Positions 14,433 to 37,917 of a stretch of DNA of 38,370 nt are shown in pieces; the first letter of the stretch is position 1, and each line of letters begins with the position of its first letter. The notes beneath the pieces are model-generated. The model made no database searches. It was not told the DNA's origin and was given only the letters and a program-made list of their open reading frames with translations. The DNA is taken from positions 1 to 38,370 of the IMG/VR virus record IMGVR_UViG_3300023094_000022; one strand, written 5' to 3'. The stretch is from a virus. The position numbers and the translations under genes were made by a program.

Positions 14433-14627
14433 ATGAAAGAGATAACAATATACGAGTTTCAGTTAGATAATATAATTGAAGCTTTAAGGATCACGTCAAA
14501 TATTCATAAATGCAGTCAAGGTATAACTTGCCATGATCGACAAGTAAGAGATGCTTTACTTTACGCTAAGAATGCTAAGGAAGGTAATAAAGATACTACC
14601 GTTAGGTTTGGCAAGAATATTGATTAA
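14433..14627 (+). CDS. 64-residue hypothetical protein, last rightward gene
   Basis: Short alpha/beta protein (MKEITIYEFQLDNIIEALRI, CHDRQVRDALLYAKNAKEGN). Its stop overlaps the stop of the convergent lysis gene by 3 bp, with no terminator hairpin visible between, so rightward and leftward transcripts overlap here. Confidence 0.65.
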   Translation: MKEITIYEFQLDNIIEALRITSNIHKCSQGITCHDRQVRDALLYAKNAKEGNKDTTVRFGKNID

Positions 14628-15157
14628 CGCGGCACGCCGTTCGCTAAGGTTGTTATTCCCGCTATAACCTGCCATAACCGCTTCTTGTTGCGTTCGCGTT
14701 TAACCGCCTTATTCAACACTTTACAGCTATCCTTAAGTACAGCTACATTAGCACTATCACCTCTGTAAGCGTTGCGCCATGTGGTTATTAAGGTGTCTTG
14801 TTCTGCTGATATATCCTGAAGCATGCCAATGTAAATATTCTGTGCCATTAAAGCCTCGTCACAAGTCGCTACCGCTTCTCTAAATATTGTATCGCGTATT
14901 GTATCGGTTTTAGATTTAAAGCGGTTCCAGTCGCCTAATTTCTTATAAACTGTATCGTGTTGAACGGTTGCTTTAATCTTCTTTTCAGCTACCTTATACC
15001 CCTGATCATATCCTGATTTAGCTATTGAATCGGTGTTGATTAGTTTAGGTAGTGGTCGCTCTGGCCTCTCACACCCCTTCCAAAACAGCAATGCGCATAG
15101 AGCGGCTATAGTTAATAGGAGAAAATATATTGTTGTGCGGGGGTGGGGAGTTTGCAT
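14624..15157 (-). CDS. membrane-anchored spanin-like (Rz-like) protein
   Basis: 177 residues from ATG 15157 (MQTPHPRTTIYFLLLTIAAL); the frame is open to 15205 but that would run into the ncRNA promoter. One N-terminal transmembrane helix, then a long, polar, charged helical domain rich in Lys/Asp (YKKLGDWNRFKSKTDTIRDT). This arrangement, next to holin-like and DUF5675 genes, is what an inner-membrane spanin looks like. No sequence signature proves it; an outer-membrane partner is not obvious. Confidence 0.6.
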   Translation of the reverse strand: MQTPHPRTTIYFLLLTIAALCALLFWKGCERPERPLPKLINTDSIAKSGYDQGYKVAEKKIKATVQHDTVYKKLGDWNRFKSKTDTIRDTIFREAVATCDEALMAQNIYIGMLQDISAEQDTLITTWRNAYRGDSANVAVLKDSCKVLNKAVKRERNKKRLWQVIAGITTLANGVPR

Positions 15158-15182
15158 ATTATAAAAGTAATGATTATTTTTG
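15151..15182 (+). promoter_or_regulatory. plus-strand promoter of the tRNA-like ncRNA
   Basis: TTTG (15151-15154), 20 bp, TATTTTTG (15175-15182): an exact match to TTTG-N20-TAnnTTTG, pointing away from the lysis operon. The start would be at about 15189. It overlaps the start codon of the leftward spanin-like gene. Confidence 0.75.
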
Positions 15183-15188
15183 AATCCG

Positions 15189-15415
15189 TAATAAAATGCC
15201 ATCATAGTTTAATTGATAGAACGCACTCGAAAAGAATGGAGTAATTAACCGGACTAGTAAAGTGAGGTGAGGGTTTGAGTCCCTCTGAAGGTTGCTCGAA
15301 ATGTAGGTTTAACAACCGAATAACGAGGCGTCAAATTACCACGCCTACAATGCTTAATAGCAAGAGATTTCGAGGGTTTGATTATTTAAGGCCCGTGTAA
15401 TAGCGGGCTTTTTAT
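15189..15415 (+). ncRNA. about 225-nt structured RNA with tRNA-like 5' domain
   Basis: Has its own promoter and terminator and no ORF of note. The 5' domain (15198-15293) folds like a tRNA: acceptor GCCATCA/TGAAGGT (one mismatch), D-arm GTTT/GAAC, T-arm GAGGG-TTTGAGT-CCCTC with a 7-nt loop near the TTCRANT consensus. The anticodon arm is abnormal (ACTC/GAGT with a 10-nt loop, no U33) and no CCA is encoded. The 3' domain is closed by CTCGAAAT/ATTTCGAG (15295-15302, 15367-15374) around hairpins GGTT/AACC, AGGCGT/ACGCCT and TGCT/AGCA. It lies antisense to any leftward read-through from 15412 to 15157. Not a tRNA I can assign. Confidence 0.6.
15391..15415 (+). terminator. rho-independent terminator of the ncRNA
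   Basis: GCCCG (15391-15395), 8-nt loop, CGGGC (15404-15408), then TTTTT. It ends the plus-strand RNA against the stop of the leftward gene 15412-15600. Confidence 0.8.
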
Positions 15416-37382: not shown

Positions 37383-37807
37383 CCCTGTATAGTTAATTCT
37401 GTTCCGGTTAATGCGTAGTGAAGATTCTGTAGTTGGTGGACGTATTCGATTTCATTTAGGTCTGCCCAACCGCATCCAACGTCTTCCCTGAATGTTACGA
37501 ACCAAATGTTTTCTTTTTCTTCAGGCTTGTATAATCCTAAGCCTCTTCTTGTATTTGCTTTCGATAATATTCCCCATTCAAAATCCTGCTGTTCATGGTC
37601 AACCTTTTTCACAAACCCAAACTTAACCAGCCACTCTTCGGTTAGTTCTATTCCTAAAACAGAGTCAATTGTAGTTCCATCATGCGAACCCCCCATAGGA
37701 TCAATTAAACCAATATACCTAGACCTAGAATCTAAGCTTCCTACCTGTGCAATTCCGCATTCAGCACTGTTAACCCAATTCCCAATCCTAAGCTCTTCCG
37801 GTTTCAT
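37379..37807 (-). CDS. conserved phage protein with LRIGNW start
   Basis: 142 residues. MKPEELRIGNWVNSAECGIA, ELTEEWLVKFGFVKK and EIEYVHQLQNLHYALTGTEL are recurrent in small proteins of Bacteroidota phages and prophages. No function known. Overlaps both neighbours by ATGA. Confidence 0.8.
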   Translation of the reverse strand: MKPEELRIGNWVNSAECGIAQVGSLDSRSRYIGLIDPMGGSHDGTTIDSVLGIELTEEWLVKFGFVKKVDHEQQDFEWGILSKANTRRGLGLYKPEEKENIWFVTFREDVGCGWADLNEIEYVHQLQNLHYALTGTELTIQG

Positions 37808-37917
37808 ATTTTACCCTCCATTAATAATCTGTATTGAAAGTGTAAGTACCACATCTTCATGCGCCAAAACTCTTTACGCACCGCCTCAAGCTTTATAGTC
37901 ATTTCGGAGTAGTTCAT
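37804..37917 (-). CDS. 37-residue basic microprotein
   Basis: ATG 37917 overlaps the previous stop (TAATG), TGA 37804 overlaps the next start (ATGA). Peptide MNYSEMTIKLEAVRKEFWRM then a helix KMWYLHFQYRLLMEGKI. The overlap at both ends supports translation. Not recognised. Confidence 0.55.
   Translation of the reverse strand: MNYSEMTIKLEAVRKEFWRMKMWYLHFQYRLLMEGKI

Follow-up and report, generated by a model that had tools for sequence, protein, structure and literature searches.

An apparently undescribed RNA family, which by sequence evidence is common to roughly a hundred viral contigs or more, was represented by one RNA locus at 15151–15413 on the plus strand (the window copy) of a 38,370-nt viral stretch, IMGVR_UViG_3300023094_000022 (the window). 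The best explanation of the whole, favored tentatively and at somewhat less than even confidence, is a phage RNA family that acts in trans as a non-decoding tRNA mimic. The novelty rests on Rfam 15 and the open-access literature, and an earlier description may exist in subscription journals or on bioRxiv. A conserved, usually single-copy RNA without an Rfam entry would represent a common phage function missed by annotation, and this one ties a small RNA of bacteria to tRNA mimicry and to possible self-assembly of RNA.

RNA locus in the window

The first-pass annotation had described a stand-alone tRNA-like RNA at 15151–15415, and a promoter match, a non-coding stretch, a tRNA-like head, a second domain, and a terminator were all present there. 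The claimed promoter of the Bacteroidota type, TTTG separated by 20 nt from TATTTTTG, was matched exactly at 15151–15182 on the plus strand, with a putative start near 15189. Five sites of this pattern were present in the window, where 2.0 would be expected, and five were also reached in 4 of 100 shuffled sequences; the promoter match alone is weak evidence. A 225-nt non-coding stretch was located downstream of the promoter match, in agreement with the claim of about 225 nt without a useful ORF. The GC-rich hairpin and T-run claimed for the 3′ end corresponded to an intrinsic terminator (15391–15413, plus strand), in which GCCCG and CGGGC enclosed the 8-nt loop TGTAATAG and were followed by TTTTT (15391–15408), and which formed in the minimum free energy (MFE) structure. 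The terminator at 15391–15408 was missing from the list of the mechanical terminator scan, probably because the stem was extended into the T-run. The RNA at about 15189–15413 appears to be its own transcription unit. Opposite the locus was the spacer that separates ORFs of the lysis region. On the minus strand, a spanin-like ORF occupied 14624–15205; its longest start overlapped the 5′ end of the RNA, and a later ATG near 15157 was possible.

The tRNA-like head was located at 15198–15292 on the plus strand. In the tRNA and Rfam model check that had been proposed for it, RF00005 was matched at 15198–15293 with 39.2 bits, above the gathering score of 29, and ARAGORN called no tRNA in the window RNA. 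The acceptor, D-arm, and T-arm elements claimed earlier were recovered. The acceptor stem was formed by 15198–15204 (GCCATCA) and 15286–15292 (TGAAGGT) with one A·A mismatch, the D-arm (15207–15222) by GTTT and GAAC, and the T-arm (15269–15285) by GAGGG and CCCTC around the loop TTTGAGT. Between the D-arm and the T-arm, an enlarged anticodon/variable region of 46 nt (15223–15268) contained the palindromes TAATTA (15242–15247) and ACTAGT (15253–15258). The anticodon-like stem in this region was composed of 4 bp (ACTC, 15225–15228, and GAGT, 15239–15242) and carried a 10-nt loop, the size that had been claimed, in place of a 7-nt loop with U33 and an anticodon. The CCA sequence was absent, also as described.

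The head was connected to a conserved 3′ domain (15292–15376, plus strand) through the junction N73-G-C (15293–15295), whose G and C hardly varied across the aligned class. The domain scored 87 bits with the covariance model R1, whose training set included the window copy. As had been proposed, it was a junction closed by 8 bp, here termed P1 (15295–15302/15367–15374). Within P1, the model placed a hairpin (15306–15317), the core ACGAGGCGTC (15323–15332), P2 (15326–15331/15341–15346), TACAA (15346–15350), P3 (15351–15362), and GAG (15364–15366). When isolated, the domain folded much better than shuffled sequences (z of -4.7). Both copies of the reported CTCGAAA repeat were found, and the MFE structure of the whole RNA paired the copy outside 15295–15302, unlike the homologues, which favored P1 pairing through 15295–15302. 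The class had not been recognized in the first-pass annotation; residues 15292–15376 matched no family in Rfam 15, and the window RNA gave only tRNA and chance matches, with no family beyond tRNA over its threshold.

Family members, covariation, and headless copies

No true homologue of the window region emerged from a BLAST search of phage records, and the RNA was absent from phages related to the window through the neighboring DUF5675 gene or the terminase. A D-arm pattern derived from the window copy mainly retrieved ordinary tRNAs. One match, L028, was the first homologue, recognized through the same 3′ domain following a tRNA-like stretch. In L028 (906–1373), an HNH endonuclease gene was located directly 3′ of the RNA, within a tRNA array. 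A first pattern of the 3′ domain matched 17 viral stretches, one or two of them chance-like, and a second pattern, independent of the first hairpin, matched at least 119 IMG/VR stretches, most of which were genuine relatives by inspection. A relaxed pattern that allowed another base after ACGA gave chance-like matches. Of 143 full-motif loci in total, 22 were removed by visual inspection ahead of the helix listing: the Streptomyces matches, L163, L165, and L173, together with thirteen from viruses. Several of the 22 scored weakly with R1, so that diverged but genuine members may be among them. R1, which was built from motif-selected sequences, detected the RNA in all 20 tested records, in a single copy in 19 of them. 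On other viral records it was positive in 1 of 50, and this one was itself fetched by the motif. The viral copies were almost all metagenomic, and family members were often situated within tRNA arrays. In an isolate phage, Tetrasphaera phage TJE1 (HQ225832), a copy of the domain was observed at 1477–1547 of L177, which corresponds to about 37763–37833 of the phage, and a recognizable tRNA-like head was not found; the copy was in an unannotated stretch downstream of ORFs that read as holin- and spanin-like.

The typical member began with a tRNA-like head containing an enlarged anticodon arm, followed by N73-G-C, P1, an optional hairpin, GAACA, and ACGAGGCGUC, and continued with a loop, CACGCC, UACAA, the P3 hairpin, GAG, P1′, and GG. 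The homologue search that had been suggested returned covarying relatives, with a P1 covariation score of 0.611 against 0.176 for shuffles and at most 0.16 when slid. In the 20-sequence alignment, 95% of P1 cells paired, and 92 cells were changed on both sides. When P1 pairing was scored without an alignment, cognate strands gave 528 against 379 ± 13 for permuted strands, with a maximum of 449 among 10,000 permutations. Alignments A1 and A4, in which strands were misplaced, were excluded from these statistics. The covariation indicates strong selection on the structure of the 3′ domain. P2 was invariant across the aligned members, which says little because P2 belonged to the search pattern; the conservation of P2 and of the core was inflated, since the scans required those letters. 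In five members (L063, L072, L115, L117, and L152), P3′-GAG-P1′ was located upstream of the tRNA-like head, so that the fold is retained but circularly permuted around the tRNA. In a variant represented by L088, L092, and L106, a CCGCTG...CAGCGG hairpin carried the 5′ strand of P1 in its loop, which may form a pseudoknot.

Recognizable heads were present at 94 loci, of which 55 were non-redundant. In these 55, the region from the D-arm to the T-arm was mostly 52–133 nt, and ARAGORN called a tRNA in only two. At the position equivalent to U33, 8 of 32 members had a uridine. Most heads had no usable anticodon loop, and the head is therefore regarded as probably non-decoding; it would also not be chargeable while the 3′ domain is attached. 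The enlarged arm often contained one or two hairpins, and 6-nt palindromes were found in 19 of 39 hairpin loops compared with 3.0 ± 1.6 in shuffled loops, a number reached by none of 2000 shuffles. The palindromes varied between members (TGATCA, GGTACC, GATATC, ACTAGT, GTGCAC, and others). Palindromic loops that differ in sequence suggest homo-oligomers formed through kissing loops. The window copy carried TAATTA and ACTAGT in its enlarged arm, but not clearly within predicted hairpin loops, so that oligomerization is proposed at the level of the family. Palindromic loops were also not seen in L059, L063, and L117, members with a short arm.

The domain was also found without a head in about 1% of the sampled Patescibacteria and in one alphaproteobacterial genome. 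The headless Patescibacteria loci were L174 (2002–2087), L208, L209, L210, L211, and L212, and a weaker headless copy, L214 (24.7 bits), was of the same class as the Rickettsiales record L167. Promoter-like and terminator-like sequences were seen by eye at L174, L208, L209, L210, L212, and L214; the exception, L211, was positioned at a contig start. The bacterial neighbors included genes resembling bL25, YchF, and IF-2 by reading of their ORFs, and genes with ASCH domains by Pfam, one of them just below the cut-off. The bacterial copies had a variant core, which in its exact form was absent from the viral contigs.

Proposed function and alternative readings

In the favored reading, the non-decoding tRNA mimic would act in trans, displaying the elbow and acceptor of a tRNA to host factors that handle tRNA or act in translation, and serving as a decoy or platform for them. 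Its acceptor end would be taken up by the conserved 3′ domain, which would be the active or protein-binding part, and in many relatives the enlarged arm would drive homo-oligomers through kissing loops. The tRNA or translation factors would thereby be diverted or organized during infection. A decoy for tRNA-acting enzymes, as proposed in the first-pass annotation, is a possible role. Since the bacterial copies are headless, mimicry of tRNA can account for only part of the function, and the 3′ domain, being present there without a head, is probably the active part; the phage head may stabilize it or steer it to tRNA-handling proteins. A more specific form of this reading, possible though on the unlikely side, is that of self-assembling non-decoding tRNA mimics, in which kissing-loop oligomers would divert tRNA or translation factors and possibly tRNA-targeting defenses, and the conserved domain would be common to the phage RNA and a small RNA of some bacteria. 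The acceptor-stem mismatch of the window copy and the position of its palindromes outside predicted hairpin loops are counterpoints. The viral neighbor genes gave no functional clue, with no recurring family (any one family was matched by at most 3 of 92 neighboring proteins). The palindromic loops, the invariant core, and the isolate phage TJE1, which carries the domain, provide experimental handles.

The palindromic loops would also fit a structural RNA that mainly assembles a dimer, ring, or cage in the manner of ROOL and GOLLD, in which case the head would be a handle for processing or stability. Cryo-EM work on OLE and GOLLD likewise drew on palindromes that switch sequence when arguing for symmetric loops between molecules (PMC12286853), and the frequent location in tRNA arrays is in line with this reading; the lack of palindromic loops in the window copy, L059, L063, and L117 is not, and the reading is considered rather unlikely. 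The 3′ domain could instead serve to trim the 3′ end of a tRNA, as a small ribozyme or a processing signal with a theta-like function, the head being a tRNA precursor. Its position directly 3′ of the tRNA-like head in most viral copies, its conserved core, and a permutation around the tRNA that resembles arrangements known from small ribozymes would agree with such a role. However, most heads lack a usable anticodon loop and in this differ from the tRNAs beside theta ribozymes, the bacterial copies occur without any tRNA, and the helix order is unlike the HDV fold, which makes this role unlikely.

An intron-containing or decayed tRNA gene would explain the Rfam tRNA score over the cut-off, and ARAGORN, when introns were permitted, placed varied anticodons in the relatives. 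This origin is very unlikely given that neither U33 nor an insert boundary was consistent, CCA was absent, and selection on the 3′ domain is strong. The proposals of the first-pass annotation that the RNA acts as antisense on the lysis operon or switches between two folds through the CTCGAAA repeat fared poorly and are regarded as highly improbable. The position opposite the lysis-region spacer would suit an antisense regulator of lysis genes, but the contexts of the relatives were varied, and no family recurred among their neighboring proteins. The MFE structure did adopt the alternative pairing expected of a switch, but the repeat was not conserved: among 50 members, head repeats of the P1 strand measured 4.36 nt against 4.23 nt by chance, and the window copy and two others stood out.

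Comparison with known systems

Theta ribozymes are HDV-like and adjoin phage tRNAs of assigned isotypes (PMC10879173). They resemble the present family in that a conserved RNA domain is located directly beside phage tRNAs in many cases, whereas the heads described here mostly lack an anticodon loop. Their nested double pseudoknot, with P1 running from the cleavage site to an internal strand, was not seen; here the tRNA-adjacent strand forms a covarying helix with the far 3′ end of the domain. In permissive Rfam scans, neither the window nor L064 had a match of the HDV type.

GOLLD and ROOL are RNAs of phages and prophages that are often near tRNA islands and form homo-oligomers with kissing loops (PMC12286853). 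The present family shares the phage origin and the frequent proximity to tRNA islands, and its kissing loops are predicted from sequence. GOLLD and ROOL are much larger, with many GOLLD RNAs over 800 nt. In the present family, the tRNA-like fold is part of the unit itself. Their models had no match in the permissive scans of the window and L064.

In tmRNA, a tRNA-like part is combined with extra domains, and permuted genes exist (PMC11915505). A tRNA-like part with an extra domain and permuted forms are likewise found here. However, no tag reading frame and no CCA were seen, and the extra domain lies beyond the acceptor end; tmRNA models did not match the window RNA in Rfam. Models of Y RNA families gave no match in permissive Rfam scans with E-values up to 5. 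Bacterial Y RNAs such as YrlA contain a tRNA-like module within a non-coding RNA, and this arrangement is shared by the family described here.
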